From assembly GCF_021134715.1 (NCBI RefSeq), contig NC_060019.1, positions 11,298,001 to 11,362,000 of the forward strand: DNA of 64,000 nucleotides. Direction: 5' to 3'. Positions 2,107 through 59,042 of this stretch are shown here, one piece after another. Positions within the stretch are counted from its first letter, which is position 1; each line of letters opens with the position of its first letter. Under the pieces are notes generated by a model. The model saw only the letters and a list, made by a program, of their open reading frames with translations, was not told the origin of the DNA and ran no database searches. The translations under genes were made by a program, and so were the position numbers. The stretch comes from Daphnia pulex (lineage: Eukaryota; Arthropoda; Branchiopoda; Diplostraca; Daphniidae).

Positions 2107-2567
2107 TTTCCCGATAGGGATTTATCGGCAAACGACCCTGTCTCCTCCCACCCACCACCCCACCCCACCCGACCCCACTCTACCCACCTCCTACTCCGAC
2201 TGTGGGACGACGTCTCTTTCTTCTACGGCTCGATAGCTGTTTTCGGGGTTTTTTACTCGATTTCTCTCTGGGAGGTGGCGCTGTTCCTCTCGGAGAGATA
2301 GGGAAACTATTTTCGTTTGGGGGGTTCCATTGTTCTTTTATGCGATTTGTGGGGGTTTTCGTCACGGTATTCAAATTGCGACCATCTTGTAGAGGGGATG
2401 CTTTTACATTGCAACGTCGTGATCCCGCTTTGATTGAGATAAAGGGGTTGGTGTGATTTAAATGTAAAAAAGAATCGCTTATTTTTAGTTAGTTTTTCTC
2501 CCGACAGGTGGTTCTGACGCCAATCCATAATTCAAGGCCGACGAACTTCAACGCGGCCTTGGATTGG
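2107..2567 (-). repeat. 0.46-kb repeat unit, copy 1 (inverted relative to copies 2 and 3)
   Basis: It starts TTTCCCGATAGGG (2107-2119) followed by ATTTATCGGCAAACGACC, a C-rich tract of CCCCAC repeats, and ends in the imperfect palindrome CAAGGCCG...CGGCCTTG. The same unit recurs at 5308-5769 and 11885-12346. On the reverse strand all three copies keep a short open frame rich in Arg, Lys and Pro (PPPREKSSKKPRKQLSSRRR and similar), but this matches no family I know. Confidence 0.75.
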
Positions 2568-2703
2568 AATGCCGATCCCTTGCTTCGCGCGCGAGTTTCC
2601 CGATAGGGTGTTTTTTTCACGGGGTTTAGGTTTTTTTGGGGGAATTTGTCAATATTTCCACCAATCATCAATTTCTCATTTTTCCACCAATCAACAATTT
2701 CTC

Positions 2704-3283
2704 ATGAATCATTTTAATGGCATTAAAATAGATCATGAATGTGGAGAGAACCCTTATGATGCAGTGTCATTTGCTGTGAAATCGGCCCTTTATGCAACAT
2801 AAATTCCATCTATTAAAATATCAACCATGGATGGATATCAACATGAACTGGAGGTATTCAATAACACTCATACTCAGGCTCATCGTTGTCGAAAAGCACT
2901 TGGAGGAGGAATGCGGCAGGCGGGTATTTTGGCCGCAGCCGGAATTTTGTCACTTTCAAAGGGACCTACCAGGGTAGCTCAAGATCATATTTTCACCAAA
3001 CAATTGGTCAATTGGCTGTTACTGCGCAAGAGGTTGGAAAAAGCGTTGTGGAAGTTGATCGATATACCGTAGAGACGAATATGGTTATGCTAAAAGTCGA
3101 GCCCATATCAGGTGCTACCCCTAATTCAATTGTGAAAAGATTTGCTGAATCTACTGAAAAGGAAGTTCACGGGATCGGTCAAGATATTCGTTGGCTTGCT
3201 TACCCGATGACTGAAACGAACATCATAATTGTTGTTCACTGCAGTAACCCACCTGAAGACATCAATCTCGCTCAAGACAAATA
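2704..3283 (+). pseudogene. EXOSC7-threonine aldolase chimeric fragment, left arm
   Basis: The 5' part (to about 2853) encodes ECGENPYDAVSFAVKSALYA and MDGYQHELE, matching the RNase PH-like exosome subunit RRP42/EXOSC7. It then passes through an intron-like tail ending CTCAG into [20 protein letters not shown], the hallmark of PLP-dependent threonine aldolase. A later part gives ETNMVMLKVEPISGATPNS and runs to a stop at 3281-3283, the aldolase C-terminus. The PLP lysine block that should precede RCRKALGGG is absent, so no active enzyme can be made. This is a copied fragment, not the functional gene. Confidence 0.8.
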
Positions 3284-3811
3284 AGGGTATGTTTTTGATG
3301 AAATCAATCAAAGTAACGCTGTATAAGTAAACTGGAAGCTTCATAAGTGCTTTATTCCATGTAACGATCATTACAAACGTAGTATTAAGTGTAGATTGGG
3401 GAATTAGTGGAAGAGCTGTTCTTTTGTTTGTATCAGCCGTTACTCGTCTTCTATTCATGTGTAAAAAATGAATACATTGTTATTTACCATTTCGTAGTTG
3501 TCGTTATGAAATCATGCGTTTTATAGCGCCTTTTTTAAAACTACCTTAAGTCATGTCGCATATCTAATTAGGTTTTTTTCCCCCAAGAAGCCAAGCACTT
3601 CCACTAGTGGTTAGATATTATACATAAATACAAAGCTCGAGCTTCGAATTCAAGCAAAACGTAACACGGCGTACAAATGTAGGGAAATTTGATTAACTGC
3701 TTGGACGTGTTTATTTAATCTTTGCTAGTAAAAAAAAAGAGAGGCCAACACCCAAGCAATAAAAGTAAGCCAGCAGTTACACACGCACGTTACGATATTG
3801 ATTGGTTTCAA
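3284..3811. other. Spacer between convergent aldolase and eIF3d fragments, left arm
   Basis: AT-rich sequence without a recognisable gene. It is duplicated in the right arm (about 7248-7776). It probably contains the original 3' flanks of the two captured fragments. Confidence 0.5.
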
Positions 3812-4450
3812 ACCTTCTCCTTCTCCGAAAAATGCTTCATCGTCGCTCTCAAACGTGTTATCGGGCACCTTGTAAAGGCGGATGACGGGCTTGTTAGGAT
3901 ACTTCACCAACAAATATTTGCCATCCTCTTCCTTCATACACAAATCATTAATCCAACGGAGAATGCCCCAAGCATTGTCGATATTAAGGTTGATTTGCGA
4001 TGCGAAATCTGACAGGTGGAACTGCTGTGTTCCAAGGATTACACGACGCGATGTATCTCGTAAGTGCATACGTGAAACATATCTGAAGCAAACAATATTA
4101 GTTACAATAATGTTCGAAGGACAACAGGAGCCTTCACATACCCGAATTTAATCCAATCAGAGTTGGCGAGCAGAGCTTGCACAGTCCATTTTGCTAGCTT
4201 GCATGCATTATTCTTCAGCTCGTTGGCCTGAACAGCACCTCGCTGAGTGTCCAGTTTCTGGCGCCATTCGACTTCACCAGACAACTTGAAGTACAAAATT
4301 ATTTTAAAGACACAGTTTCATTACGAACAGTAAATATGCATACCCTTGAGTCCCATTCATTAAGAGCTTTGATGTTGATAAATTGGTTATCACCAGCCGA
4401 TCCAACGGTGACAGCGTCATGTTCGCAACGTGCCACCAGGACACCACCTC
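3812..4450 (-). pseudogene. eIF3d C-terminal exons, left arm copy
   Basis: Three exon-like blocks read on the minus strand. Block 4450-4344 gives [20 protein letters not shown] and ALNEWDSR. Block about 4285-4142 gives [20 protein letters not shown]. Block about 4087-3812 gives [20 protein letters not shown] and [20 protein letters not shown]. These are the C-terminal half of translation initiation factor 3 subunit d. Splice-like borders are kept (CAG before 4450, GTATGC after 4344). The N-terminal half is missing and is replaced by EXOSC7 sequence immediately upstream, so this cannot be an ordinary eIF3d gene. Confidence 0.85.
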
Positions 4451-4499
4451 CTGAAAACTTAGTATTAGACTATTTATTTCAAATTCAAAGTTTTAACCT

Positions 4500-5105
4500 A
4501 CAAACCTTCATCAAAGTCAGTACACAAGGAATGTTCTCTGTGTTTAGTCTCTTGGTATCATAAGGATCATCTGAGAGCTCCAGTTCATGTTGATATCCGT
4601 CCATGGTTGCTTTTTTAATAGATGGAATTTGTGTTGCATAAAGGGCCGATTTCTCAGCCAATGACACTGCATCATAAGGGTTCCCTCCACATTGATTCAT
4701 GATCTTTTTTAATACCATTAAAATGTTTCATGAGAAATTGTTGATTGGTGGAAATATCACATCAGCTATATCAATATGTCAACATACATGACCCAACATT
4801 GCTGTCGTGTCAATAAAGAAAGTTGACATAAATTAATTAAGTATCACCTGAAGCATAGGATCTTTGTAGGAATTTGCAAATTTCATTTTCCAGATGTTGA
4901 TGAGTTTGCAAGTCTCAGCCTTGCCGATCCACTGGCATTGGAAACTAATGTAGTTTCAAGAATTATAGGGTGATAATCCAGCATTGTTCTACCATCACAT
5001 CGTAAATCATCCATTGATATATCCAAAGTTGAATTTCGTTAAGTAAGGACAATTTTATTTCAATAAGAGACCAACAGAATTTAATTATTTATACCTGGAC
5101 TCCAT
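4500..5105 (-). pseudogene. EXOSC7 (RRP42) exon 1, exon 2 piece and internal exon, left arm
   Basis: From the ATG at 5105 (MES, then a GTATAA-type donor) the minus strand continues to an exon with DDLRCDGRTMLDYHPIILET and SNASGSARLRLAN near 5010-4905. It then jumps to an internal exon at about 4718-4515 with GGNPYDAVSLAEKSALYATQ and ELSDDPYDTKRLNTENIPCV. These match the RNase PH fold of exosome subunit RRP42/EXOSC7. Exons between the two blocks are missing. The internal exon is followed by a shortened EXOSC7 intron that runs straight into eIF3d sequence at 4450. Confidence 0.8.
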
Positions 5106-5307
5106 GATGAATGAATGCTTTACGGTATATAAAAAACCGTACGGCTATTGTACCAGCTTTACGTAGTAGGGAAAATAATTTACAATCAAAGGATTATACT
5201 ACCTACATTATTTAAAATTTGACTACATTTTGCTTTAAACTTGCCTTGATTCAGTTGATTTGATTGATTAGCAGCCAGCCTTGTTTTGTTTTTGTTTTGT
5301 TTTTGAA
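5106..5307 (-). promoter_or_regulatory. Copied EXOSC7 promoter-like region, left arm
   Basis: Reading the minus strand, a TATA-like TTTTTTATATACC lies about 25-35 bases before the ATG at 5105, preceded by CCGTACGG. The same arrangement occurs in the right arm (about 5947-5980) and before 11687. This suggests that promoter and start were copied together with exon 1. Activity is not shown by sequence. Confidence 0.45.
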
Positions 5308-5769
5308 TCCAATCCAAGGCCGCGTTGAAGTTCGACGGCCTTGAATTATGGATTGGCGCCAGAACCACCTGTCGGGAGAAAAACTAACTAAAAATAAGCG
5401 ATTATTTTTTACATTTAAATCACAACGACCCCATTATCTCAATCAAAGCGGGATCACGACGTTGCAATGTAAAAGCATCCCCTCTACAAGACGGTCGCAA
5501 TTTGAATACCGTGACGAAAACCACCGCAAATCGCATAAAAGAACACTGGAACCCCCCAAACGAAAATCGTTTCCCTATCTCTCCGAGAGGAACAGCGCCA
5601 CCTCCCAGAGAGAAATCGAGTAAAAAACCCCGAAAACAGCTATCGAGCCGTAGAAGAAAGAGACGTCGTCGCACAGTCGGAGTAGGAGGTGGGTAGAGTG
5701 GGGTCGGGTGGGGTGGGGTGGTGGGTGGGAGGAGACAGGGTCGTTTGCCGATAAATCCCTATCGGGAAA
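5308..5769 (+). repeat. 0.46-kb repeat unit, copy 2, centre of the palindrome
   Basis: It runs from the CAAGGCCG...CGGCCTTG imperfect palindrome near 5315 to CCCTATCGGGAAA at 5757-5769. It is inverted relative to copy 1 and in the same orientation as copy 3. Near the end, CCGATA-AATCCC-TATCGG forms a 6-bp stem with a 6-base loop. Confidence 0.75.
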
Positions 5770-5944
5770 TTCAAAAACAAAACAAGGCTGCTATTCAAAA
5801 ACAAAACAAGGCTGGCTGCTAATCAATCAACTGAATCAAGGCAAGTTTAAAGAAAAATGTATAGTCAAATTTTAAATAATGTAGGCTTATAATCCTTTGA
5901 TTGTAAATTATTTTCCCTACTACGTAAAGCTGGTACAATAGCAG

Positions 5945-6567
5945 TACGGTTTTTTATATACCGAAAAGCATTCAGTCATCATGGAGTCCAGGTATAATTA
6001 AATTCTGTTGGTCTCTTATTGAAATAAATTGTCCTTACTTAACGGATTCAAATTTGGAAATATTAAAGGATGATTTACGATGTGATGGTAGAACAATGCT
6101 GGATTATCACCCTATAATTCTTGAAACTACATTAGTTTCCAATGCCAGTGGATCGGCAAGGCTGAGACTTGCAAACTCATCAACATCTGGAAAATGAAAT
6201 TTGCAAATTCCTACAAAGATCCTATGCTTCAGGTGATACAATTAATTTATCTCAACTTTCTTTATTGACACGACAGCAATGTTGGGTCATGTATTTTGAC
6301 ATATTGACATAGCTGATGTGATATTACTACCGATCAACAATTTATCATAACATATTTTAATGGCATTAAAATAGATTCTTGAATGTGGAGTGAACCCTTA
6401 TGATGCACTGTCATTGGCTGAGAAATCGGCTCTTTATGCAACCCAAATTCCATTAAAATAGCAACCATGGACGGATATCAACATGAACTGGAGCTCTCAG
6501 ATGATCCTTATGATACCAAGAGACTAAACACAGAGAACATTCCTAGTGTACTGACTTTGATGAAGGT
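5945..6567 (+). pseudogene. EXOSC7 promoter-like region, exon 1 and internal exon, right arm
   Basis: A TATA-like TTTTTATATACC (from 5950) is followed by TTCAGT (5971-5976) and ATG at 5981, giving MES and a GTATAA donor. Next comes DDLRCDGRTMLDYHPI (about 6069 onward) and, after a gap, an internal exon at about 6375-6567 with ELSDDPYDTKRLNTENIPSV. This is the mirror copy of 4500-5105. A few codons of the internal exon are missing relative to the left-arm copy, so the arms have diverged slightly. Confidence 0.8.
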
Positions 6568-6620
6568 TTGTAGGTTAAAACATTAAATTTGAAATAAATA
6601 GTCTAATACTAAGTTTTCAG

Positions 6621-7247
6621 GAGGTGGTGTCCTGGTGGCACGTTGCGAACATGACGCTGTCACCGTTGGATCGGCTGGTGATAACCAATTTATCAACATC
6701 AAAGCTCTTAATGAATGGGACTCAAGGGTATGCATATTTACTGTTCGTAATGAAACTGTGTATTTAAAATGATTTTGTACTTCAAGTTGTCTGGTGAAGT
6801 CGAATGGCGCCAGAAACTGGACACTCAGCGAGGTGCTGTTCAGGCCAACGAGCTGAATAATGCATGCAAGCTAGCAAAATGGACTGTGCAAGCTCTGCTC
6901 GCCAACTCTGATTGGATTAAATTCGGGTATGTGGAGGCTCCTGTTGTCCTTTGAACATTATTGTAACTAATATTGTTTGCTTCAGATATGTTTCCCGTAT
7001 ACACATACGAGATACATCGCGTCGTGTAATCCTTGGAACACAGCAGTTCCACCCGTCAGATTTCGCATCACAAATCAACCTTAACATCGACAATGCTTGG
7101 GGCATTCTCCGTTGGATTAATGATTTGTGTATGAAGGAAGAGGATGGCAAATATTTGTTGGTGAACGATCCTAACAAGCCCGTCATCCGCCTTTACAAGG
7201 TGCCCGATAACACGTTTGAGAGCGACGATGAAGCATTTTTCGGAGAA
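6621..7247 (+). pseudogene. eIF3d C-terminal exons, right arm copy
   Basis: Blocks at about 6621-6727, 6784-6927 and 6985-7247 encode the same eIF3d segments as the left arm, for example [20 protein letters not shown] and [18 protein letters not shown]. Splice borders are retained (TTTTCAG before 6621). The copy follows the EXOSC7 fragment directly, so a transcript from the copied promoter would fuse the two. Confidence 0.85.
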
Positions 7248-7776
7248 GGTTTGAAACCAATCAATATCGTAACGTGCGTGTGTAACTGCTGGCTTGCTTT
7301 TTTTGCTTGGGTGTTGGCCTCTCTTTTTTTTTACTAGCAAAGATTAAATAAACACGTCCAAGCAGTTAATCAAATTTCCCTGCATTTGTACGCCGTGTTA
7401 CGTTTTGCTTGAATTCGTAGCTCGAGCTTTGTATTTATGTATAATATCTAACCACTAGTGGAAGTGCTTGGCTTCTTGGGGGAAAAAAACCTAATTAGAT
7501 ATGCGACATGACTTAAGGTAGTTTTAAAAAAGGCGCTATTAAACGCATGATTTCATAACGTCAACTACGAAATGGTAAATAACAATGTATTCATTTTTTA
7601 CACATGAATAGAAGACGAGTAACGGCTGATACAAACAAAAGAACAGCTCTTCCACCAATTCCCAAATCTACAACAATACTACGTTTGTAATTATCGTTAC
7701 ATGGAATAAAGCACTTATGAAGCTTCCAGTTTACTTATACAGCGTTACTTTGATTGATTTCATCAAAAACATACCC
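7248..7776. other. Spacer between convergent fragments, right arm
   Basis: Mirror copy of 3284-3811. AT-rich, no gene recognised. Confidence 0.5.
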
Positions 7777-8345
7777 TTATTTGTCTTGAGCGAGATTGAT
7801 GTCTTCAGGTGTGTTACTGCAGTGAACAACAATTATGATGTTCGTTTCAGTCATCGGGTAAGCAAGCCAACGAATATCTTGACCGATCCCGTGAACTTCC
7901 TTTTCAGTAGATTCAGCAAATCTTTTCACAATTGAATTAGGGGTAGCACCTGATATGGGCTCGACTTTTAGCATAACCATATTCGTCTCTACGATATCTC
8001 GATCAACTTCCACAACGCTTTTTCAAACCTCTTGCGCAGTAACAGCCAATTGTTTGGTGAAAATATGATCTTGAGCTACCCTGGTAGGTCCCTTTGTAAG
8101 TGACAAAATTCCGGCTGCGGCCAAAATACCCGCCTGCCGCATTCCTCCTCCAAGTGCTTTTCGACAACGATGAGCCTGAGTATGAGTGTTATTAAATACC
8201 TCCAGTTCATGTTGATATCCGTCCATGGTTGATATTTTAATAGATGGAATTTGTGTTGCATAAAGGGCCAATTTCTCAGCCAATGACACTGCATCATAAG
8301 GGTTCTCTCCACATTCATGATCTATTTTAATGCCATTAAAATGAT
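7777..8345 (-). pseudogene. EXOSC7-threonine aldolase chimeric fragment, right arm
   Basis: Minus-strand mirror of 2704-3283. EXOSC7 sequence ([29 protein letters not shown]) is followed by [20 protein letters not shown] and [20 protein letters not shown]. It ends with ETNMVMLKVEPISGATPNS through a stop at 7777-7779. The reading frame differs from the left arm near 8013-8025, and the PLP-lysine region is missing, so it is non-functional as an aldolase. Confidence 0.8.
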
Positions 8346-8491
8346 TCATGAGAAATTGTTGATTGGTGGAAAATGTTTCATGAGAAATTGTTGATTGGTG
8401 GAAATATTGCCAAATTCCCCCCAAAAAACCTAAACCCCGTGAAAAAAACACCCTATCGGGAAACTCGCGCGCGAAGCAAGGGATCGGCATT

Positions 8492-9049
8492 ATGTTGCGG
8501 TCAATAAGAACGGACTTTCCGATCGAATGGAAAAGCATATGGTTGTAAGTTATCAACTTTACCGCTAGATAGCAGAAGCTAGAAGTGCAAAAGAAATCGA
8601 ACGAGTTTGACTTCAAGATTTTTGTACTCCTTCGGTTCGTCCTACTTCTTAGTTCTTACATTGATTGAAGTTTGTAAGAATCTATATGAGAAAATTCACC
8701 GAATTTCAAATGACAAATTCTTGTCATTAAAAAATTATCGCAGTCGTCATAGTCGCCATGCGATCTTAATTTAATTATTGTTAATGAGATGTAAGATTTC
8801 AAGTTTTGCGGGTAATTGAGGTAAAAACAATGCCGATCCCTTGCTTCGCGCGCGAGTTTCCCGATAGGGTTTTTTTTTGCGGAGTTGGTGTCTTTTTAGC
8901 TTTGGGTTCGATGTTTTTGTTCGATTAATCGTTTTGTAGGGATAAAAAAAAGCCTCATAACAATATGAACGGGAAAAAAAATTGCTAACCGAAATGAATC
9001 CGCCCAAAAAATTAAAAACCTACGCGCGAGTTTGACTCGAAAGTATGGG
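8492..9049. other. AT-rich spacer with an isolated copy of the palindrome terminus
   Basis: No gene is visible. At 8829-8869 lies AATGCCGATCCCTTGC...TTTCCCGATAGGG, a third copy of the end sequence of the palindromic element. It is oriented like the left end, followed by a T-rich tract. It has no matching partner to its right in this window. Confidence 0.6.
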
Positions 9050-9600
9050 GTGACAACTTTCTTTATTGACACGACAGTCGACAGCAATGTTGGGTCTTGT
9101 ATGTTGACATATTGGTATAGCTGATGTGATATTTCCACCAATCAACAAATTCTCATGAAACATTTTAATGGCATTAAAATAGATTCTTGAATGTGGAGGG
9201 AACTCTTATGATGCAGTGTCATTGGCTGAGAAATCGGCTCTTTTTTTGCAACACAAATTCCATCTATTAAAATAGCAACCATGGACGGATATCAACCTGA
9301 TGTGGAGCTCTCAGATGATCCTTATGATACCAAGAGACTAAACACAGAGAACATTCCTTGTGTACTGACTTTGATGAAGGTTTTGTAGGTTAAAACTTTA
9401 AATTTGAAATAAATAGTCTAATACTAAGTTTTCACTTTCAGATTGGAAACCATTTCCTAGTAGTTCCAACACCAAAATGAAAATGCTGCAGCTTTTCTGG
9501 TATTAAAATGATTACTGCTGTTAGGAAAATTGACAGTTGTAAGACATCAGCTATGATATTCTTAAAGATGGAACTTTTAGAGAAATAACATTTAAGCGAT
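9050..9600 (+). pseudogene. EXOSC7 fragment retaining normal exon order
   Basis: An internal exon (about 9195-9380) encodes the ELSDDPYDTKRLNTENIPCV block. It is followed by an intron with the same sequence as in the palindrome arms, but here continuing to ACTTTCAG. It then enters a decayed exon resembling the RRP42 C-terminal region (ITAVRKIDSCKTSAMIFLKM, compare the RKVGKGS...IFEMME block of animal EXOSC7). In-frame stops show that it is dead. Unlike the arm copies it is not joined to eIF3d here. Confidence 0.65.
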
Positions 9601-10059
9601 TATATAAATCTTCCAAGAGTTCACCTTTACTTATCTCTTCGTAACCTAGGTTGACTATATAATTTCTTTACCATCGCCCCTTGTCTGAATTAAAGTGCTT
9701 TTGGTATAAAAAGAAACGGCAAATAAAGCGGCAACTCAAGCATTTCTTGTAAATAGGACAGGAGATTTTGCTTTTATAATTGTGGGCTATATAAGTTCAT
9801 GAATAGGTCAAAGCCGATACTTACTGATTCGGGTGGTTATCAAGTCATACTCGACGTATGACGTCATGACGTAACATCGAAATTACGTAAAATTACAGAA
9901 GTCTTGTTGCTTTTTTCAGTTAATTTCGAACCATTATTTATAGTATTTAAATTTATATAAATAACATATAAGGTTAATAACCACCCTAAACAAGATAAGA
10001 TTTTTGATAGATTAATTGAACGTTTATAGGATGAAATTACGGCTCTATTTCTCTTATCT

Positions 10060-10306
10060 ATGAAGGGAATTTTGACTAAAATTTTCGACCGCACACTTGG
10101 AGAAACTTCTGATGTAGTGACTAAAGAAATATCTAGTTTTCTTGTTAAGAGTGGTAATCATATATCACTGAGACCCGAATTTACACAGGCTCAACAAGTA
10201 AGTGGTATAGGACTAGAAAAAGCTAGGCATTTTGCTTTACTAAAGGCAAAACTTATTATAAATGGTTTAGAAGGCAAAGAAATAGTAGAAAAAGGACAAC
10301 TTCCAG
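10060..10306 (+). CDS. Unrecognised open segment, possible exon or relic
   Basis: An 80-codon open stretch ([20 protein letters not shown], then [20 protein letters not shown]) ends in CAG followed by GTAAGT at about 10306, a strong donor. I do not recognise the protein. Its location between EXOSC7 and cyclin G relics suggests another captured piece, but chance is possible. Confidence 0.25.
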
Positions 10307-10459
10307 GTAAGTCGTTGACGATGAGACGGATTGCTTTGGGCATAGCCATCGTAAGGTGCCATTGCCGAAGTGACCATTCTATACCCTCCTTCAACTAGTC
10401 ATCTTTGACCTAGAGGTAAAATATCAGCTTACAAAATTGGAATCAACAAACAAGCACAA

Positions 10460-11337
10460 CCACTAAATACCTGAACAAGTCGCTGAAGTTCTAGTAAAAC
10501 GTCTCTGATAATAACCTCGATGGCCGGCTGGTGACACTTCATTTCGACAAACAGTAGGACGAAAGCCAAAAGAGATGAGGGAAAGGCAGCATTATTTTGC
10601 GTCACAGCAAATGGTCTCCTGCTTGCATGAAAGAATAAGAAGGTCTTGCTGAAGAGTGGCAGGTAAAGTCGTCGAGAGAAGTGAGTGATACAGGTTGAGG
10701 AATGTTAAGGTCGTGACCGGTTCTTCTTGGGGTAGACAAGCTAACTTGGCTTCGACAATTTTTTCCATCCGGTTGATGTCTCCGGCGGTACATTTACATT
10801 AAGATATCGTTACCAGATATTGAGGTTCAGGAACAATCTATTAATTAAAATTTATTAGACAACCTGAATACTAGCCAATTAAAACTGTCAACATACCTAC
10901 AATGGACTCTGAATGGAAGATACCTCAATGTTGTTCTGTTTAATCGTCTCCATCCATTGGCAAGCTGCTAGATGGAAGGAGCTGATTGCTATGCATGAGA
11001 GGTGTTTAGGAGTGCTTTCATGCGGCTCATGAACCAGTCCATCATGTTGAGAGCATCCAGAAGAACTGCATAAGGAAGATCATACCAGACTTTCATGCAG
11101 CGAAGAACATGAGCAGCTTCATCCCTCATTGCACACATAATTTCACCGCTTTCCTAAAACACAAACAACAAATTACAAATTAGTTTGTATTCTCAATAGA
11201 AGAAGCATTACAGAATACTTACTCCTGTATTGCTGGCTGTTGAGTGTTGACAGAAGTTGAAGCTTTGGTTGGAATTTAGCTTCAAGGGCCATGGCTTGTC
11301 GTAGACTCTGCACCAGTGTTGATACATCAGGACTGGT
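10460..11337 (-). pseudogene. Cyclin G-like gene fragment
   Basis: Minus-strand blocks read SLRQAMALEAKFQPKLQLLS (about 11330-11225), then after an intron KLCAMRDEAAHVLRCMKVWY and LNMMDWFMSRMKALL (about 11155-11000). Further on are AGDINRMEKIVEAKLACLPQ and LTFLNLYHSLLSTTLPATL (about 10793-10615). These follow the order of a G-type cyclin: N-terminal segment, cyclin box, and the post-box DINRME region. Part of the cyclin box is missing between blocks, and at least one in-frame stop interrupts the C-terminal part. It is joined at about 11337 to EXOSC7 upstream sequence. Confidence 0.65.
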
Positions 11338-11884
11338 GGAAATATCACATCAGCTATATCAATATGTCAACATACAAGACCCAATGTTGCTGTCGTGTCA
11401 ATAAAGAAAGTTGAGATAAATTAATTGTATCACCTGAAGCATAGGATCTTTGTAGGAATTTGCAAATTTCATTTTCCAGATGTTGATGAGTTTGCAAGTC
11501 TCAGCCTTGCCGATCCACTGGCATTGGAAACTAATGTAGTTTCAAGAATTATAGGGTGGTAATCCAGCATTGTTCTACCATCACATCGTAAATCATCCTT
11601 TGATATATCCAAAGTTGAATTTCGTTAAGTAAGGACAATTTTATTTCAATAAGAGACCAACAGAATTTAATTATACCTGGACTCCATGATGAATGAATGC
11701 TTTTCGGTATATAAAAAACCGTACGGCTATTGTACCAGCTTTACGTAGTAGGGAAAATAATTTACAATCAAAGGATTATACTCCCTACATTATTTAAAAT
11801 TTGACTACATTTTGCTTTAAACTTGCCTTGGTTCAGTTGATTGATTAGCAGCCAGCCTTGTTTTGTTTTTGTTTTGTTTTTGAA
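11338..11884 (-). pseudogene. EXOSC7 exon 1 with 5' flank, third copy
   Basis: The sequence matches 4735-5307 in the same orientation. It has the ATG at 11687 (MES and donor), the DDLRCDGR...SGSARLRLAN exon near 11600-11490, the TATA-like element before the ATG, and the GTTTTG-rich tract adjoining the repeat unit. Downstream it runs into the cyclin G fragment rather than an EXOSC7 internal exon. Confidence 0.75.
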
Positions 11885-12346
11885 TCCAATCCAAGGCCGC
11901 GTTGAAGTTCGTCGGCCTTGAATTATGGATTGGCGTCAGAACCACCTGTCGGGAGAAAAACTAACTAAAAATAAGCGATTCTTTTTTACATTTAAATCAC
12001 ACCAACCCCTTTATCTCAATCAAAGCGGGATCACGACGTTGCAATGTAAAAGCATCCCCTCTACAAGATGGTCGCAATTTGAATACCGTGACGAAAACCC
12101 CCGCAAATCGCATAAAAGAACAATGGAACCCCCCAAACGAAAATCGTTTCCCTATCTCTCCGAGAGGAACAGCGCCACCTCCCAGAGAGAAATCGAGTGA
12201 AAAACCCCGAAAACAGCTATCGAGCCGTAGAAGAAAGAGACGTCGTCCCACAGTCGGAGTAGGAGGTGGGTAGAGTGGGGTCGGGTGGGGTGGGGTGGTG
12301 GGTGGGAGGAGACAGGGTCGTTTGCCGATAAATCCCTATCGGGAAA
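11885..12346 (+). repeat. 0.46-kb repeat unit, copy 3
   Basis: Same unit and orientation as 5308-5769, ending CCCTATCGGGAAA at 12334-12346. Here the hairpin CCGATA/TATCGG is followed by GAAACTAA. It marks the right border of the repeat island. Confidence 0.75.
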
Positions 12347-12809
12347 CTAAACAAGCACATAAACAGGTAAAGGTATTTTGATTAAATCTCTGATATAATA
12401 TTGCAATGACCGTTCGCTCTTTCAAAGAGAGAAATAAAAACACGCAAGAATACTTTTATTTTTCGAGTAGCTATAAAATATACAACTTGAATGTTTTTCT
12501 TATCTTTCATTTGAGTTGACTTGAAGTGCCACGAAATCCTTATTGAAAGCAATTGAAATTACTTTAACGGAATTTTTAAAAATTTAGTTTGAATTATTTT
12601 AATATAAATGATTGATTTATTGATAATTAAATAACATAGAAAACCTTTTAAAAATATAAAAATGATCCGCACATCTAAAATCTTTTTAGAAATATGGCGT
12701 TTTTCAGTAAAAAGTAGTGAAGCCTCTTCTAACTATTGTCGGTAGTCTTTCTTTTCAGAAGGAAGTTTCTATCGTCGTCCACTTAGCTGCTTGAGTCCAT
12801 CTCATCGCC
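12347..12809. other. Intergenic region upstream of RpL37
   Basis: AT-rich sequence without a gene. A pyrimidine-rich stretch (TCTTTCTTTTC, about 12747-12757) some 55 bases before the ATG could be the TOP-type transcription start usual for ribosomal protein genes. Confidence 0.45.
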
Positions 12810-21291: not shown

Positions 21292-24200
21292 CTGGAAAAA
21301 ACAAAAACGATGGTTAGAATTTGAGCGTTGAATTAAATTTCAGGACGATAGAAAAAGGTTCAATGACAAAAATCGAACTCTACTGATCCGACGAGTGATT
21401 ACAAGTGTCATTACCTGGCAACATAACAGAACTATACAGTCGGCTACGTTGAAAGAAGAGGCAGTTTTATTTATTCTCTATTTTTATTTTAGACAAGAGT
21501 GGCGAAAGCCGATGATCCGTCTCCACGTTTCTTGCCGTATTGGCCGATAAAAGAGCCGTCCTCATTCATGCCTTCTACAATGTTTAAAAATAAATAAAAA
21601 ACAGAAAAAACAAACGGACAAAACAGAAATGAATAATCAGGCAAACTTAAAAGTGTCACAGAAATATCAAACAAGTCGTGCACAACACTGAAAAACAATC
21701 CTATTGACGTGAACCACACCCTCAACTGTTTGAGCTTTTAAAAAGACTCCACCCTTACAAATCCAATAAACTTATTGATCCAGATCGTGTTTGGCGCACA
21801 CAAGTGTAGACAAACGTAAACACAAAGAAAAATTACGACATAAAACAAACTAAAAGGATCGAAATTTAAGATCATTTACCTGCTTCTCCTTCTCCGTATT
21901 CGGCCATGGAGTCATTATCCTCGCTCTCGGGCGGCATTTTGGCTCCGCTGCTCAAAGAGGCTTTGCTGGGCGCCCGGCTGCTACCAACTCTAAATATATA
22001 CACATATCAAAAGGGAGAGTCAAGACTGGGGAAATGGGCCGATTAAATTTGCATGCTCGGTACACAACGTACGGTTGCGAGTATTCGTGGAATCCGGCGT
22101 CCTCGTTGAAATCCTTGCGACCGTGAGTGGCTTCTCTCTCGTGGACAGCGTACTTTCCACCTCGGTTGCGTTTAATGATGCAAACCAGGACCAGGACCAA
22201 GAGTAATAATGCAAGGGCCAGCATCATGCCGATAAACCATCCCGTCGATGCCACAGCAGAAGCTCCTTGAATGTACGGTCCATCTGAGCGTTGAATCAAT
22301 CAGAAATGTTTAAATAATTGTGTGTGAACAGATTTTGGGTTATTTAAACACTTACCAGCATACATCTCGACCTCTTCTGGGTCGCTTTCGGTGAAGTAGT
22401 CACCGTCGACGACGACTGCGCAAATTTCGTAGAGTTGATTGGGCTCCAGTCCGCGTAAAATGATAAAGTTCTCGTCGAATTCATCTTCGCTCTTGATGTA
22501 GATGGTCTCTCCTTTGCGTCGGTACTGGACGAAGAAATGGGAGCCAGGCTGACCGTCGACATTCGGATGCCAGACGACTTTGATGGCCGGCATTCCGTTG
22601 TCCAACGTCACCTGGTTCCACGTGAATTGCGGCTTGTCGGGCGGATAGGCATTTCCGTTGCGCGTGTTTCGTTCAATGTAGTAACTGTTGGAAAAAGAGC
22701 GAAATTTAAATCTCATTTCACGGTGCGTACAATTTTAGAATGTTTCAATAACTTACTCATCTCCTTCGCCGGCAATGGTCATGGCTTTGATGTGGAGGCG
22801 GTATTTAGTGTTGGGCTCGAGACCAGCCAATTTGGCTCGGGTCTGAGTCGGATCCCGAATGGGCGGTTCCCTTTCGATCTGGGGTCCGATTTTGGTGCCT
22901 TCCACTTTTTCGTAAAAGATTTTGTAGCCTCGCAAATTGCCGTTGGGCTCTTCTGGCTGCTTCCAGATCAAGTAGAAAGCCGAAGAGCCTAGAGGGGCGG
23001 CTTCAAAGTAGTCCACTGGTCCAGGTCCTGGTAAAAAAAGCAGAGTAGTGTAAAGCGCAACAATAGTGACATAATGATAAGAAAAAAGCCAAACGAGGTT
23101 AAAATATGACTACATACTTCCTTCTGGAGTCTTGAAGGAGAGAACGTCGCTGGCCGGTCCTCGGTAAGCCGAATTGATGACTCGAACGCGAACGAGATTG
23201 ACAGTGTGCGGGACAAACTTGTTGACGAACGCCTTTGAAGCGTTGCTAATCATTTCACGTGCCCGAATTTCTCCTTCCTTTTCTGTCCAAGTCTCAATCT
23301 TGTAGCCTTTGAAGTGTCCTGAATACGGGAGCCAATGACGCACAAGAAATCCATTCCGTCAGGTCAAAGATGGCAAGAAAAATAAGTGAGAGGAGTGAAT
23401 TGATTTTACCTTGGACAGAGTCCGGATTGACGGGATTCCAGGAAAGGATCGCGCTTCTTTCATCGATAATTTGATTCAAAGTGAAGTTGGACGGCGCCTC
23501 CAGCGGAACGTCCTCTCCGGAATAGCCAGTCACTTCTTGAGCTGCCACATTGGCCTCGCCAATCTGATTAAAGGCCACCACTGGACCGTGACAAAATCAT
23601 TGATGAGGCAACACTCTGAATTAAAATTTTGGATCTCAGTTTCTTTTCTTTTACCTTTGATGCGATAGCGTTTAAAAGTGGGTTGATTGGGGATGAGAAT
23701 GGACGACTGTCTCCAGTCGGAAATCATTTCAATGTTCCAATCTTCGCCGGGAATGTCGCGGCGCCAATACACTCGGTAGTGGAAGTTACGCCCGTTGTGC
23801 TCGATCTCGGGCATGGGGTTCCACGTGACGACCAAATTGGTGGGCGACGTGCCGCGTCCCTCCACGTTATCCGGGTTCTTGTTGGGCACGTCAGGAGGCG
23901 TCGTGCACATGGAAGAGTGATCCGATGGAAGCGACGGGCCAATCTTATTACGGGCAATGACGCGGAAAGTGTAATTGGACCAAGGGCTCATCTCAACTTT
24001 GAAGCGCGTCTCGGTGGCCGGCACGTTCTCAAATGACACTTCCCAGCTGTCCGGCGTGAAACTCGTGTTAAATTGTATCGTGTAGGTCAAGATAGGGGCT
24101 CGATTATCGCCGGAAGGCGTCCATTCTATGGCTGCATCGCGGTTGTTGCACTGGATGCCCACCATTCTCGGCCGGTTGGGGACGTCTGTCGAGTGAAAAT

Positions 24201-27200
24201 GTTGGACATGTCGTGACGGAATGATAAACTACCGCATCGAGTAGGGGAGGGGGGGGGGGCCTTTTTTTACCTTGAACGATGAGAGTGGCCTTGTCTTCTG
24301 CCAAGTCGAGGATAGTTTTGGCACGGCATGTGTAGTCGCCAGTGTCCAGCTCGGTCGTCTTGGTGATGGTCAGCGACGAGTCCTGCGATTGGACGAACCG
24401 CGGCTCCTGCTCGAAATCGATCAATTGATCGGCGTGCAGCCACTCGATCGTCAAGTTGAGCGACGAGTCGGCAACGGCATTGCAACGGAAAGTGGCCGTC
24501 TGTCCAGCAGCCACTTCGTAGTCTTCGGGTCCATCCCTGATGACAGTTCGCTCTACAAAGAGAAATTGCCCGAGAAGAGAGAAATTAAGACCAAACCAAC
24601 AACCAAAATTTTCATTCAATCGAACCTTTGACGATGAGAGTTCCGTTGGCGTTGGCTGATCCGAATTTGTTGGTGGCGTGACAAGAATACACCCCAGCAT
24701 CAGTGAAGGTCACATCCCTACAAATTCAATTCAAAAGAAATGGACGTGAATTTTTCAATGGAAAACGTGCGGATCGACACGCAACAAGCCCCGCATGGCA
24801 TCCATTTTCCCAACAATGGCCTAGCCCTGGCAGCTGTCGGAGCGGAAGCGGAAAGAGTGGGTGCATGCGGTTGGAAAGAGCTAGGGGGAGGAAGCCCGTC
24901 AAAAGCAGCTGTCACAATAGATTTCGCTATCACATTTTTGTTTTATCTTTTTCTTAAACAAAAAAGAGAGAAACCGACAATCATTTGATCAAAAGACGCT
25001 ACCTAATTTCCAGATCTCCGCTGTCCATGACACGGTAGCGTCCACCAGTCAGTTCCAATCCGTCGCGAATCCACTTGACGAGCGGCTTGGGCGAGCCGAA
25101 AACTTTACAGGTGAGATTGACGGCCGATCCGTCGACGGTGGCCGTGTCGTCGGGGGCGTCCTCAATGTCGGGCGCCAAGGCCAAAACGTTGAGGTACACA
25201 TCCTTGTAGACGTAACCGATACTGTTGGTGGCGTTGCAGCCGTAGTTGCCCGTGTCGCTCTTCTGCAGCCGCTCAATGACAATGCGGTTAGGGAAGACCT
25301 TCCGGCGCGGATTGACGGACGCCTCTTCGATGGGTTTGCCGTTGTGGATCCATTTGATCTCGGGGGCCGGCGAGCCGTTGGCCTCGCATCGGAATTCGGC
25401 CAGCTCGTCTTCGGCGCCCACGTACACTTCCGGCTCGACGGTAAAGTAAGGAGCCGCCAAGACCTGGAGGCTGATGGAATAAGACTTGGCCAGTCCGACG
25501 CCGTTGCTGGCCTCGCATTCGTAGTTGCCAGCGTCCTCAGAATCGACACTTTTGATGATCAACGTCTTGCCGTAGGAGGAGTAAGTGGTACGGCCGGCGG
25601 GCAGAGCGGCGCCTTCCTTGGTCCAGCGGATCTGTGGGAGAGGAGTGCCGCCGAAGACGCACCACAACTCGATACTCTTGCCACGATGGGCCACGGCGTT
25701 TTTACGCGACACGTACTGCGAGACGGGTTCGTGGCGATTCTGAGCCGCAGCGCTGCCAGTCGCGATGACGTCCAGGTAAACTTTGTTGCCCAGTTTGTAT
25801 TCGTTTCTGCATTTCAACAAAAGAAAAGATGGAAAAGTTAAATTAGTATTTTAAATTTAATGATCCGTTCCAGTTATCACCCTCCAGTCAGCCGGAAATG
25901 TGTGCCCATCATGAAGCCCACCCGAAACCTGAAGGAAACGTGATACGCGGTCACCTGCACGAGGGGATAACTACAACCACCAAGACGCGTTCGCATCTCA
26001 GATCCCATCACATTGGCGCCCGACTGTAATAACACACTCGGCCATTTTTTCTTTATGAAATTATTTTCTCTTTTTTCTCCTTTCCACCCCACCACCCACT
26101 TTTTATTTTTTCCCAGCTATTCCGGGGAAGGTCATCCGACGGACCGTGTTCAAATCGATTGCCCACGGTACCGTAGATGTGGCGGTTTTCCATCTATATT
26201 TCCTTTTTATTACTGGACTGTTTTTGTTGTTGAAGTACTGGGCCCCTAATTATGTTTAATTTGGCGGGCGGACGTACCGGAAAAGAGAGGTGGCTGAGCA
26301 GGCGTAGACAAAGTCATCGCTGGTGTCTTCGCGTGTGACGTTGGAGAACCAGAGCGTGCCCTCCGGATCGACCGTCATCCTGGACGAGTTGATGCTGCGC
26401 AGGGCTCCGTTGCTGTTCTGCATCATCCAGTAGACGGAGGGTTTGGGCCAGCCGTCGGGCGGCTGGCAGCGCAAACTGAATGGCGAGCCCTCCTGGGCCG
26501 AAACGGTCATGGGCGGCTCGTCTTTGAACGAATTGAGATCCGATTTTCGGACAAAAACCGAATTCGATGTCGCCGTTCCCCACTCGTTGGATGCGAAACA
26601 TTGATATTGCCCTGCAGGAGAAATCAACATTTGAATTAAAAAGACAAATTAAAATCAAATCAAAATAAATTCCAGACTGACCGATATCTTCATCTCGGGG
26701 CGTGGTGATGACCAGCGTCCCTCTTCCGGGCTGCTGAGAGATTCGGTCGTCGTAGGACTGCCACAGGAAATCAAAACCGTTCTTGACCCATCGGTATCTA
26801 TTAGACCCCAGCGAAAAAATAAGAAAAACAAAATAACAGTCAGTGACTGCAGGGAACAGCCGGTTGACAAGGGATGAGGGGCGAGGCCGGCTTTTTTTCT
26901 TTCGGCCGTGATGGATCGTGACCCGATGGTCCGACGATCCATCACCAGTCGCTAATGGTACTATTCAATTAACTGGAGTAGAGGGGAGGAGGAGGAGTAG
27001 GAAGCGGAGCTCTCTCTTGGTATTTAAGGTTAGGACTATATCCACGTACTTTGGGGCGGGTTCGCCTTCCGCTTCGCATTCGATGATAAACGGTTTGTCG
27101 TTCTCGTCGATCCTCTGCGCCACTTGGAATAGGAGTTCGTCCGAAGGCGGTTGTTTGACAACTTGCGGCGGTGATTGAACTGTTCAAAGCAACAACCAGA

Positions 27201-44800: not shown

Positions 44801-47800
44801 GATTATTCCAGACAAGGCTTACCTTATCCGCCGTCAGGATACGCAGAAATGGACAACGCTGTTCCACCAGATCGTTACGGTAATTATTCTTTCCCCCCCC
44901 CCTCTTTTCCCCTATGTGTGTGTTTCTCTCTTTTAAGTCCATAAAGGCAGAAAAGAAACTAAAGAGAAGGGGCATGTTTGTGTTGTTTGGTCTTGGTTGG
45001 CCGAGCACGGTAGGACGCGGTAACTCGTCCCACAGGTCTCCTACTTTTCTTTTGTTTGTTTATGTGTACGTGCGATGACATAGTTAGCAGCATGCAAACG
45101 AAACGAACAAACAGATAACCAAAAAAAGAAGAAAAAAAAGTCATTGTCACCTCGTTCTTTCCCTCCCGGTCCGGAAGAGAATTTTCGGGCCGTTACGACT
45201 CTAGATGGGCGTTCGTTCTGCTAGTCGATTCTCGCATGCCTTTTTAGAGTGCAACGTCAATATCAGATGGCCATTAAGAAAAGATGGAAGTCGTCGGCTT
45301 CAGTTACTTTTGCTTCCGTACATTTCCAAGTCCATTGTTCTCATGTGTCTCGTGTGTTAGTTAATTGCATGTTGTCACTTTGTTTGCTTTCAATTATCAT
45401 TGGTATTTTGTTTCATTATTTTATTTTGTTCCCCCGTCGCTGCTGCGTATGCTTGCATGCTTTGTGTTTGTAGCAGCTCATTCACCCTACGGTCGAGCCG
45501 CTTACGCCAATGTCAACGGTTTGGATCCGGGCTCAGCTGCCGGCCCCGGCACGGGATCCGGTTACCGTTTACATCAAGACGATCAGGACGATCAACAAAT
45601 GCAGTATCAACAACAACAAGACTTTGGCATGAGTTCGGCTGGTCATAGTCCGACGAGGAGGCTGGCTCCTCCTCCGCCATCCCGATCGAGTGGCGTTGAG
45701 GGTACCTATCAACCTCGCCCACCGCCACCCGTTCCGGCAGAAGCCATGGCCAGTCTCAATATCGGGCTCGATAAAAGTGGTCGGTTGAACTCGTTTTCCT
45801 ACCTTTCTTTCTCTTTTATTTTGCTATTTTCGTATTGAGTAGCTTCGTTTTTCTAGCTTCGTATTTTTGTCCGTATTATAAATTTAAGGCTTGGACTGTC
45901 TAGTCTACCGGTTAGTACAAATTTAGCAGTATGATGGGAAGCCATAAGTAGACAACCAGCATGAATGAAATCGAATGTTTAGACAAATTTGATGGATACA
46001 ACTGTCAGTGTCACATGACACTCATGTCATGTTTTTTTTTCTCCACCATGTTTCTACAATTTATTCTAAACTGATGCACCTCTTTCAACCAGGTGTGAGA
46101 TGGCGTGATCCGGACTTGCATGAAGTGATTGCCTTCCTCAACAATCCTAATGCCGTGGTGAAGGCCAATGCAGCTGCATATTTACAACATCTCTGCTACA
46201 ACAGCGATCCTGTCAAGCAACAGACTAGGCTCCTGGGTGGAATCCCTCTACTCGTCGGCCTCATCTCCTCCGAACAACCCGACGTCCACCGTAACGCTTG
46301 CGGAGCGCTCAGGTGACTGACCATTCAACTGTCACGCTGTTGTTGTTGCATACTGATTATTAATCTCTGCTTGTTTGGCTGAAATAGAAACTTGTCTTAC
46401 GGGCGGCAAAATGACGAGAATAAGAGGGCATTGCATAAAGCCGGCGGAATTCCCGCTTTGGTGCGGTTGCTAACACGAAGACCCGATTCCGACGTCCAAG
46501 AACTTGTGACGGGCGTCTTGTGGAATCTTTCTTCGTGCGAGGTACGTACGATAAAAAGAAAAATGCAATTCCACCCGTTAGATTCGCCTGTAATTATTAA
46601 TGATAACGCAATAGGAGCTGAAGCGAATCATTCTAGACGAGGCACTATCCGTTTTGGTGGCCCAAGTAATCATCCCCCACTCTGGATGGGACCGCAAAAA
46701 ACCGGGTCCCACCCATTGGACGGCGCTGTTGCGGAACGGGTCCGGCATCCTACGGTACAGAAAACTCTTGTGTGGGTGGAAAAATTCTCGGCGTTTCGTC
46801 TAACCGTTTCTCTCATTGGCTCTCAGGAATGTCAGCTCTGCGGGAATCGAGGCCCGTCAGGCACTCCGACTCAAGGATGGGGTAGTGGAGGCTCTGTTGT
46901 ACCTAGTTCGAGGAGCCATCGACCAGAACCACATGGACAACAAGAGTGTGGAGAATGTCATTTGCGTTCTGCGCAACCTTTCCTATCGATGCGAAGAGGT
47001 GGTTAATCCCAACTATGACAAGCAGCCGCCGAATGCGGGAGGTGCAGCGGGAGGCAGCGGAGGACAAACCAGGGCCACAGCTCAACACTCTGGTGAGCTC
47101 CTTGCGTTGTTGTCTAATCCGGAATGTCGTTCATCATTCTAATGATATCTTGTCAGGTGAGAACCAAGGCTGCTTCGGAGCTAGCCGGAAGAAGAAAGAC
47201 GGTAGCGGGGCAAGTGGGGCGTTGTTGCCATCTCCTTCATCACCCTCGACAAATAGCGGCGCCAATGCGACCGCCAACAGCGGCTCCAGCGGGAATTTGC
47301 CTCAACGATCTGATCCACCGAAAGGCATGGAACTGTTGTGGCAACCAGATATCGTGCAGCCGTACCTGGCTCTGCTTTCCAATTGCTCCAATCCAGAGAC
47401 GTTAGAAGCTGCGGCTGGTGCCATTCAAAATCTGGCCGCCTGTTACTGGCAACCGTCGATCGACATCCGCGCTGCCGTCCGCAAAGAGAAAGGACTGCCC
47501 GTTTTAGTGGAGCTGCTGCGAATGGAAGTCGATCGAGTCGTGTGCGCCGTGGCCACAGCCCTGCGAAATTTGGCACTTGATCAGCGCAACAAGGAGCTTA
47601 TAGGTACCATCTATATTTGATGCTATTCTGATCCTCGTCTCACTTTTTATTTATTTTTTATTTTTAAGGTAAATACGCCATGCGAGATTTAGTTCAAAAG
47701 CTACCTTCTTCGACGCCCCCACCTGCCAACACCAAAAACCAGCAAGGGATTCAGCAGCAACACGATTTGGGCGGTGCTTCAGACGAAACCATTGCCGCTG

Positions 47801-52530: not shown

Positions 52531-55500
52531 ATGGCGTACTTTGGAAACTCAATAGAGGTAAAATTATATGCATGTTGAAAATACTGAATGTTAGTCAAAC
52601 AAACAATTTTTCGTTTAAGGATTATGAACTGTATGAACAAATTGGCAAAGGAGGTTTTGCCTCCGTTCATCGTGCCATTTGCAAAGCAAACGGAATCCCA
52701 GTTGCGATCAAAATGGTATGTTCAATGATACAGTATTATTTCAAATTCTTGAAACTATCTCGAAATTCTTGATTAACCTGACAGATAAACAAGAAGTTGA
52801 TGCAAGCTGCTAATATGACAGAGAGAGTCAGACAAGAAGTGGCTATCCATTCCAGACTTAGCCACCCATCAATTCTTCAACTCCATGCTTTTATTGAAGA
52901 CAGTGATTTTGTTTACTTAGTTTTGGACTTGTGTGAAAATGGTGAATTCCAACGCTATCTAAAATCTCTGGGCCATCCGTTAAATGAAGATGAGACACGT
53001 GAAGTTATGAGTCAGCTATTGGAAGGCTTGCTTTATCTCCATTCACATCACATCCTTCACAGGGATCTTTCATTAGCTAATCTACTTTTAACAAGAGACA
53101 TGAAAATTGTAAGTGACTTTTATTTAGCATCATAACTAGTTTCAAATACAACTTTGTTGACAGAAAATTGCAGACTTCGGGCTTGCCACTCAACTTAATC
53201 ATCCAGATCAGAAACACATGACTATGTGTGGAACTCCAAACTACATATCTCCAGAGGTAATTAACATTTTGCACTGATGATGTTATTCACTCATTTCATG
53301 TTCATATTTAAAATGCATATTTAATTTAGGTTGCTACACGTAGTTCACATGGATTTGAAGCAGATGTTTGGGGTCTCGGATGTTTATTGTATACCCTTTT
53401 GGTGGGACGCCCCCCTTTTGACACTGATGCCGTGAAATCGACTTTGACACGAGTTGTAATGGCTGACTATAAGGTAGATTATTTGTATTTCAGCAACTCG
53501 AATATCTTTTTAAAAAATAATCTATTGTAGTTGCCAGTGACATTGTCTGCGGAGGCCAAAGATTTGATTCAGCGACTATTGAAGAAGAATCCTAAAGAGA
53601 GGCCAACTTTGATGGAAGTCATGAAACATCCTTTTATGAACAAACGTAGCCATAACGATATTGATAGTGGTCTTTTCACAATGTCAACTGTACCCTCAAT
53701 AATGACTCCGTCCATAAAATCCCAAACACCTATGCTACCGAAGCTCCGTCGGTGTAACAGTAATCGAGAAATGAATACCGGTCCAATTTTAGCTTTGCCT
53801 AAACCTACATCTAATAGCAGCAAACACTCGTAAGGAAAATTAATCTTTTTTACTTAAGTTGCCGTTCTTGTAATTATCTTAATTTTCTTGTTTTGTTTTA
53901 TCCCAGAGCTCATTCATTACCCGACAGCCGAACGCATACAGAAAGTAGGAATCGTCGTGTTCAGTCATGGGGTGAACCTTGCATGGGAACACCCCTACCT
54001 GTTGCGACCAGCAGTGAGAGGCAATGTGACAATCAGTGCGGAAGACATAATTGTCATCACAACCCTTGTCAACTAAGTTTAAACAATCGAAGCACCCACT
54101 GCAGCCATCATTCTCCATGTCAGAGCTTTTGTTCGCATGGAGCCAGTTGCCAGTGTCACGCTGCTAAGCCACCAACGCCGAATCCTGTTAATCCATCGAA
54201 TAGGAGTCATTGTCTCAACAAGCCAACTCCGCCGCTATCAACTGCCCGCTTGAAAGCTAGCCGACAACGAACAAAGAACGCCATATGTTCCATTCTAGAG
54301 CAGGGCGAAGTTTGTCTCGAATTTATCCGAAAAGTAAAGGAAACGGAACGCATTGTGGATGTTTGTCGAATCTCAGGCGATGGAATGAGAGTAAGTAGTG
54401 ATTTTTCGTCATTTTTTGTTCTTACATTTTAATTACTTACATCATTTGCCTTCTTATTTTATTAGATCGTCCTTTATCAGCCTAACAGTGGTAAAGGTGT
54501 GGCTGTAGCTGATGTTCCTCCTCCTTTACCGTCAAAAGGAGCAGACGCAATTTACTCTTACGAGAGTCTCCCTTCTGAGTATTGGAAAAAGTATACGTAT
54601 GCTTCTAGGTTAGTTCTCTAAAGTTACCTTTTCCTATCTGGTTGAAATCTAACAGTGTATTGTTATTTACCTAGGTTTGTTAATCTGTCTAAAGCAAAGA
54701 CCCCCAAAGTAACTATATTTACTACTCGAGCAAAGTGCATTTTAATGGAAAATGGACCTAATGCTGATTTCGAAGCGCTCTTCTACTCTGGATGGAAAAT
54801 GGCCCGTTCATTGAACAGTCTTCAGATAACAGAGCCGAACGGTCTCATGTCGACGCTGACATTAAAGAACGATGATGAACCACATCTGGATCGTGAGATT
54901 ACGAGAGATTTGTGGAATCATTTGAAGGAGTGTTATGCTCACTGCGAACGGATTGAGGCGTCTGTCAATCAGTTGGCTTCACTTCCAGTTGCCAACGGTT
55001 CTCTTCAATTTTTCCCACTTACAATAGGACGAAAACCGATCTCTCCAAGCTCCACCAAACTGTCGCTTAGCAATAAGGAAAATCGAATGACGGAACCTGT
55101 TCTTAGTGGTTTGAAATCCTTTGATGGATCTGTTCGTAGTGCCGCCAATAGTTCCTGCAAGAGCTCGTCACTTCGACGGTTAGATCAGCATAACCCAGAT
55201 AATATTACTAAAGCGATTGATGTCCCCGGCATCGGTCGGGTCTTCCAAAAGAATTCGGGTAAGAATTACTAAAAGCGTCATTTTACACAAAAACTGATAA
55301 TGAATGTGTACTTTTTCTCAATAGGTCAAGTGGAAATACTTTTCGACGATGGTTCACGTATGGGCATTGCTCCAAATTCAACCACGGTTGCTTTTAGTCA
55401 GTCCGAGCATATCCGTGCTGAGGTATTCAACACCAAAGAAGTTTTGCCAGACAGGGTACGCCAAAAACTTTCTTTGGTACCTCGAGCTGTTGAACAGCTA

Positions 55501-58603: not shown

Positions 58604-59042
58604 TGTACGAGTTAAACGCAACCCGCCACCACCGCTGCGGCAATGAGACAAAAAGCGATGGTTTAGTTTAGCGGAAATCTGCTGCAAAAATCAAGTTACA
58701 AAATTTTCAAACTCAGACTTCTGTCGAATTTTGCATCTAGTCTACTGGTGCAAAAAGCGATCCTATGTGTTTGGTAGTTATGAAGATGGTTGTTTAGAAA
58801 ACAAACAATGGTGAGTTTTTTTGGCTACTCAGAACACCCCAGCATTGTTTGTTTTTTAAACAACCATTTTCTTAACTGCCAAACACATGGAATCGCGATT
58901 TGCGCTAATAGACTAGATGCAAAATTCTACGCGAGTTGTTGAATTAGAAAAATTTGTAACTTGACTGACGGAGATTTGCGCAAATAATAAACCATGGCTA
59001 TTTGTTTCATTGGGTAGTGGGTTGCTTTGTTTAACTCGCACA
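58604..59042. repeat. Long hairpin (foldback) element
   Basis: Left arm 58604-58810 and right arm 58843-59042 are inverted copies separated by a 32-base loop. Matched blocks include ACGAGTTAAAC, AATCAAGTTAC, AATTTTGCATCTAGTCTA, TGTTTGGCAGTTA-type sequence and AACAAACAATG at the loop edge. The inner ~85 bp pair best. It has no coding capacity, and fits a miniature inverted-repeat element or a hairpin RNA source. No clear target duplication was seen. Confidence 0.8.

Follow-up and report, generated by a model that had tools for sequence, protein, structure and literature searches.

A long inverted repeat in Daphnia pulex, probably formed when one copy of a gene-carrying mobile element landed head-on in another

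The Inverted Repeat and the Elements That Form It

The subject of this analysis is a long inverted repeat in the Daphnia pulex genome (133.2 Mb, 13 contigs), whose arms both carry pieces of the host genes for threonine aldolase, eIF3d and EXOSC7. It lies in a stretch of 64,000 bases on contig 3 (11298001-11362000), which is referred to here as the window and whose coordinates are used throughout. A reading of the sequence alone had claimed a long inverted repeat at 2568-8491, and self-comparison of the window locates it exactly there, with arms of about 2.7 kb around a spacer of 501 bases:

2568..5294, + strand, left arm of the inverted repeat
5796..8491, - strand, right arm of the inverted repeat

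The arm at 2568-5294 pairs with 8491-5796 at 95.7% identity, gaps included, over 2,736 aligned columns, and a separate arm-to-arm alignment found 2,616 matching positions and 71 mismatches, together with 15 gap events that take up 48 columns; the longest perfect run between the arms is 181 bases. This is far beyond chance, and the arms are clearly alike, yet they are neither near-identical nor near-perfect. The palindrome proposed by the sequence-only reading therefore stands, while the label "near-perfect" does not, and the alignment of the arms bears out their similarity but not the near-identity that had been ascribed to them. The extent given there likewise holds for the inverted repeat but falls short of the whole unit, since 2107-2568 also belongs to it, as an inverted repeat of the centre at 5308-5769. 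A third relative also lies outside the earlier bounds, at 8829-12349.

The layout can be described as two copies, A and B, of what we call a type II element:

2107..2568, + strand, probable 5′ end of copy B, severed by the insertion of copy A (assigned as nearest among 27 family 5′ segments)
2569..5771, - strand, copy A, a complete type II element, with its 3′ end at ~2569 and its 5′ end at ~5769 (placed by the family ends)
5772..8491, + strand, remainder of copy B, with its 3′ end at ~8490 (placed by the family 3′ end and the match to the contig-7 copy, L012)

Captured Pieces of Host Genes

Both copies carry host sequence from the same loci:

2861..4451, + strand, captured piece in A, comprising the threonine aldolase 3′ end (+), the eIF3d 3′ end (-), introns and intergenic bases (95.8% to the native locus L014 over 1,592 columns; Pfam matches)
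6620..8192, - strand, captured threonine aldolase/eIF3d piece in B (96.2% to L014 over 1,583 columns)
4452..5121, - strand, EXOSC7 exons and introns in A (three pieces, 87.9-94.6% to the native locus L051)
2678..2853, + strand, second, inverted EXOSC7 piece in A (88.1%, 177 columns)
5965..6619, + strand, EXOSC7 exons and introns in B (match to L051)
8200..8372, - strand, second EXOSC7 piece in B (match to L051)

The native loci can be pointed to directly. At L014, on contig 7, the threonine aldolase gene is on the forward strand and that for eIF3d on the reverse, so that the two converge (both named by Pfam and PDB matches), and each shows more exon-like frames beyond the captured part when translations are read. 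The native EXOSC7 locus, L051, lies on contig 4 and was named by PDB matches to RRP42. The captured piece of 1.58 kb, which is present in seven element copies, is continuous across both convergent 3′ ends with introns included, and this continuity argues for one DNA-level capture rather than two. All three host genes named by the sequence-only reading are indeed found in both arms, but two of them, threonine aldolase and eIF3d, are adjacent and converge within one piece, which reduces the sources from three to two. The 1.58-kb piece was apparently captured only once: at two-state, gap-free sites of the captured segment, 39 derived states are common to all seven element copies, changes that fit a single capture.

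Separate Ancestry of the Two Arms

A tree and site patterns for the same segment and the same seven copies directly support two sublineages. Copy A differs from four other copies by 3-7 mismatches in about 1,590 and copy B differs from the contig-7 copy by 1 mismatch in 1,573, while A and B differ from each other at 28 positions in 1,573. Thirteen derived sites mark the group made up of A, L009, L010, L011 and L013, ten mark B with L012, and none of these sites is private to A and B. In the tree, the companions of A lie on contigs 4, 6 and 8 and that of B on contig 7, each group having 100/99 support. The tree and the absence of sites shared by A and B alone therefore argue against an inverted duplication in place and leave no trace of arm-to-arm conversion. 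The likeness of the arms, which had been attributed to recent origin or gene conversion, does not have that explanation, since the nearest relatives of the arms sit on other contigs; judged by these comparisons, it is the likeness of two members of one mobile-element family.

Nesting of Copy A in Copy B

Copy A is 99.6-99.7% identical to L009 and L010, and the remainder of copy B (5772-8491) is 99.8% identical to L012. The nesting has direct support from one empty site: L012, the contig-7 sister of B, is uninterrupted exactly where the window holds copy A. Comparison of the filled site in the window with the empty one in L012 shows that a target duplication is absent at the insertion of A, at this one site.

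The weaker part of the layout is the assignment of 2107-2568. By a gap-free count, this segment differs from the B-like copy in L012 at 2 positions in 451, with a single 11-base deletion besides. Among the 27 family 5′ segments (23 of them distinct, one with a gap at both allele sites), these two alone share two alleles. Several comparisons pull the other way. The segment is nearly as close to four type I segments, members of the same family described below, at 3 mismatches in 462, two of the four being one locus fetched twice; and gapped BLAST scores the type I element of the window at 99.4%, above both matches in L012, namely 98.3% for a second, short copy and 97.2% for the adjacent B-like copy. 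The assignment leans on few sites because type I copies are almost equally close, and conversion between 2107-2568 and a type I copy may have contributed. The case that this segment is the missing 5′ end of B is good but not overwhelming.

The sequence of events would then be a simple one. Copy B would have been in place before copy A, and A, from the other sublineage, would have entered the 5′ region of B in the opposite orientation, between what are now 2568 and 5772, leaving no target duplication. Since A and B are the same kind of element, such head-on nesting yields an inverted repeat of 5.9 kb. The palindrome is thus very probably a by-product of transposition, a type II copy having inserted in reverse orientation into a relative from its own family, and what looks like a striking structure would be explained by ordinary transposition, namely a same-family insertion in opposite orientation.

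Element Ends and Class

The ends of the elements share a set of short motifs:

2107..2119, + strand, 13-base subterminal repeat at the 5′ end assigned to B (also 5757-5769, - strand, and 12334-12346, - strand)
2583..2608, - strand, 3′ subterminal repeat and palindrome of A (also 8451-8476, + strand, for B, and 8844-8869, - strand, for the type I element)

When an element is read from its 465-base side, it starts with the 13-base subterminal repeat, which is partly inverted just downstream, and aligned 5′ ends place a nested inverted repeat of six bases, with six-base spacing, in this 5′ repeat. The same 13 bases recur near the 3′ end, starting ~40 and finishing ~27 bases before the terminus, and a perfect 10-base palindrome lies ~16 bases from the 3′ terminus. 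Pattern searches of the genome recovered 48 3′ ends, 26 of them exact and the others with up to 3 mismatches, and 29 5′ ends, again with 26 exact; the reversed-pattern controls returned 0 for both. Twenty of the 48 3′ ends carry 2-3 differences, mostly one shared variant sequence, and no Helitron_like_N match was found within 30 kb of any of these 20. At a locus on contig 8 (L054, 4287001-4297000), broken frames for a Helitron-type Rep and a PIF1 helicase point toward a family 3′ end, and this locus is possibly the remnant of an autonomous partner. In its ends the family resembles a non-autonomous, Helentron-like (Helentron-associated, DINE-1-like) element of the rolling-circle type, and we infer that it moved in rolling-circle fashion by means of an enzyme supplied in trans.

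A number of observations sit uneasily with this assignment, which is one made on end structure. The DNA fold of the 3′ end is no better than that of shuffles (z +0.92) and that of the 5′ end only slightly better (z -1.36). The flanks lack a strict TT, with T at 12 of 25 distinct 3′ flanks and 3 of 27 distinct 5′ flanks, counts in which a terminal T is not assignable to element versus host. Of the 48 family-like 3′ ends, only 1 has a Helitron_like_N match (52 were considered) within 10 kb. The frames at L054 are broken, PIF1 being matched at E 1.3e-13 and Helitron_like_N falling under its cut-off in the piece scanned, and no endonuclease family was matched in eight L054 pieces scanned. Five relatives of the L054 helicase are without a family 3′ end in the stretches examined, which may stop short.

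Alternative Explanations

Several other explanations of the palindrome deserve consideration. Two arms of 2.7 kb, 95.7% alike and near each other, are what would be expected from an inverted duplication, in place, of one chimeric locus, or from a palindrome maintained by arm-to-arm gene conversion. Such an origin is the least probable of all those considered here: in the captured piece the nearest relative of each arm is on another contig, there are zero derived two-state sites private to both arms, and a severed 5′ end of B outside A, together with an empty site elsewhere, has no place in it. Inverted duplication and gene conversion are accordingly rejected by the tree and the site patterns. 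Inverted repeats are also prone to misassembly, and the window is known here from the assembly alone, so a false inversion or collapsed haplotypes, a possibility raised by the sequence-only reading, has to be weighed; it is very unlikely because copies on other contigs match each arm better than its partner does, and the arms, which are separated by 71 mismatches and 15 gaps, belong to different sublineages and meet at a clean insertion junction with an empty counterpart. The same nesting could instead have been produced by a cut-and-paste element. Pack-MULE and other Pack-type elements are non-autonomous DNA elements that carry chimeric host gene fragments with introns, end in terminal inverted repeats and duplicate a fixed length of target on insertion. 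The family in the window is like them in carrying host gene fragments with introns and in having one 13-base repeat at both ends, and unlike them in that its ends are asymmetric, with the repeat at the 5′ end as opposed to ~27 bases inside the 3′ end, and in that no duplication is present at the one site tested. These two differences are the grounds on which a cut-and-paste element was rejected, and it appears improbable, if somewhat less so than the other alternatives.

A different kind of proposal is that the locus gives rise to a hairpin RNA, from which small RNAs directed at the threonine aldolase, eIF3d and EXOSC7 genes would be made. Of the 1,590 21-mers that the two arms have in common, 648 recur without mismatch in the native threonine aldolase/eIF3d locus and 36 in that of EXOSC7, so a read-through RNA could pair with itself and match these loci, but the matches count introns and intergenic bases. 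Chance insertion accounts for the layout without selection, and no head-on pair is found at five other type II loci (L009-L013, in 10-kb stretches), although L013 has an internal inversion. Nothing observed suggests that the palindrome acts as a hairpin regulator. A small-RNA locus of this kind is about as doubtful as misassembly, and it is a shade more doubtful still that the head-on pair, as an accident of transposition, yields a read-through transcript and thereby supplies a small-RNA pathway modulating eIF3d, threonine aldolase and EXOSC7. If this were true, a chance nesting of transposons would have become a young regulator of three genes.

The Dispersed Family

The arms belong to a family spread over the genome. 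When the first half of the left arm was used as query, at least 57 matches were returned (40 of 59 first-look candidates were scored, so the counts are lower bounds). With the eIF3d part, all 8 candidates scored were matches, seven of them in elements and one native, at contig 7:3616609. Type II copies, whether complete, truncated or rearranged, lie on contigs 3 (two), 4, 6 (two), 7 and 8. The third family member in the window is of the other type:

8829..12349, - strand, type I element of 3.5 kb (family match)
9055..9532, + strand, EXOSC7 piece in the type I element (88.7%, 450 columns; a further 21 bases at 95%)
10294..11333, - strand, captured cyclin gene piece in the type I element (91.9% to L056, 1,046 columns)
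11331..11703, - strand, EXOSC7 pieces in the type I element (88.3-96.0%)

Type I differs from type II in the middle. Eight frames of the type I middle gave no Pfam match at the curated cut-off, and its source was found through DNA: one of 22 genome matches, at contig 3:10634990, is the likely native source. At L056, one frame matches Pfam Cyclin_N (E 2.1e-6) and a second frame is without a match; the gene may be that for cyclin G. A PDB search with the L056 sequence returned nothing. EXOSC7 pieces occur in all three window elements at 88-96% identity, mostly 88-92%, and because of this mostly lower identity to the native locus they look older; the order of captures is inferred.

Members of the family also tend to lie close together. 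Among the 28 closest family 3′ ends there are 4 pairs within 6 kb, against 0.034 expected if the ends were uniformly placed, and two of the four pairs sit in the window. On contig 11, L020 holds two type I copies head to tail (737080-740620 and 740667 onwards), ~40 bases apart. On contigs 3, 7 and 11, three type I copies (window 11885-12346, L040, L020/L052) have the same first 462 bases, an identity that suggests recent movement, and in L040 (contig 7, ~7321924-7321950) a second short copy of the 5′ terminus stands in tandem ahead of the 5′ terminus. The captured segment of L013 (contig 6:6635501-6645500) is inverted relative to the element ends at ~2918-5967. At L010 (contig 8, ~616100-619300), the host sequence on the two sides of a type II copy forms a 12-base inverted repeat, as though the insertion had hit a hairpin loop; this was seen in one copy only.

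Elsewhere in the window, 372 bases at 58641-59012 are an imperfect reverse complement of themselves (77.8%), perhaps a fold-back element, and ordinary genes lie at 23530-25850, 46383-47620 and 54646-55272, with frames for immunoglobulin/fibronectin domains, armadillo repeats and a PLK4 polo box.

Relation to Known Systems

This locus is not mentioned in the titles and opening lines of abstracts of the literature surveyed. The same species harbours the HeliDaph Helitrons, which include non-autonomous families and form tandem arrays (PMC2884549, in part); they can be compared with the family described here by description only, not by end sequences, and the term "gene fragment" is absent from the main text of that paper.

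The closest likeness is with the HINE or DINE-1-like elements. In the parts of PMC4067079 drawn on here, HINEs are described as having palindromic, inverted subterminal repeats of 12-15 bases at both ends, the 5′ one being close to the terminus and nesting one side of an inverted repeat and the 3′ one lying 38-60 bases from the 3′ terminus, with a palindrome of 5-10 bases 8-35 bases from that terminus. They have TT flanks or a T-rich target and no target site duplication, and their autonomous partners encode Rep, helicase and endonuclease between the same ends. The window family has in common with them a 13-base repeat at both ends and the nested 5′ inverted repeat, and likewise lacks a target duplication, at one site. 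Its palindrome near the 3′ end resembles theirs in length and place, although the 3′ end folds no better than shuffles. The family differs in having no strict TT flank and in that a partner bearing an endonuclease was not found. According to the same source, gene captures are found less often for Helentrons than for the Helitrons of maize or bats, although a Culex Helentron captured fragments of two histone genes and is present in eight copies. Unlike the HINEs so described, the window family carries pieces of four host genes, one piece reaching across two convergent genes. It would provide a clean example of a single DNA-level capture across two convergent genes in an animal family of the rolling-circle type, one in which a single genome displays the native locus, two sublineages in the course of spreading, and derived changes common to the copies, as a single origin would leave them.

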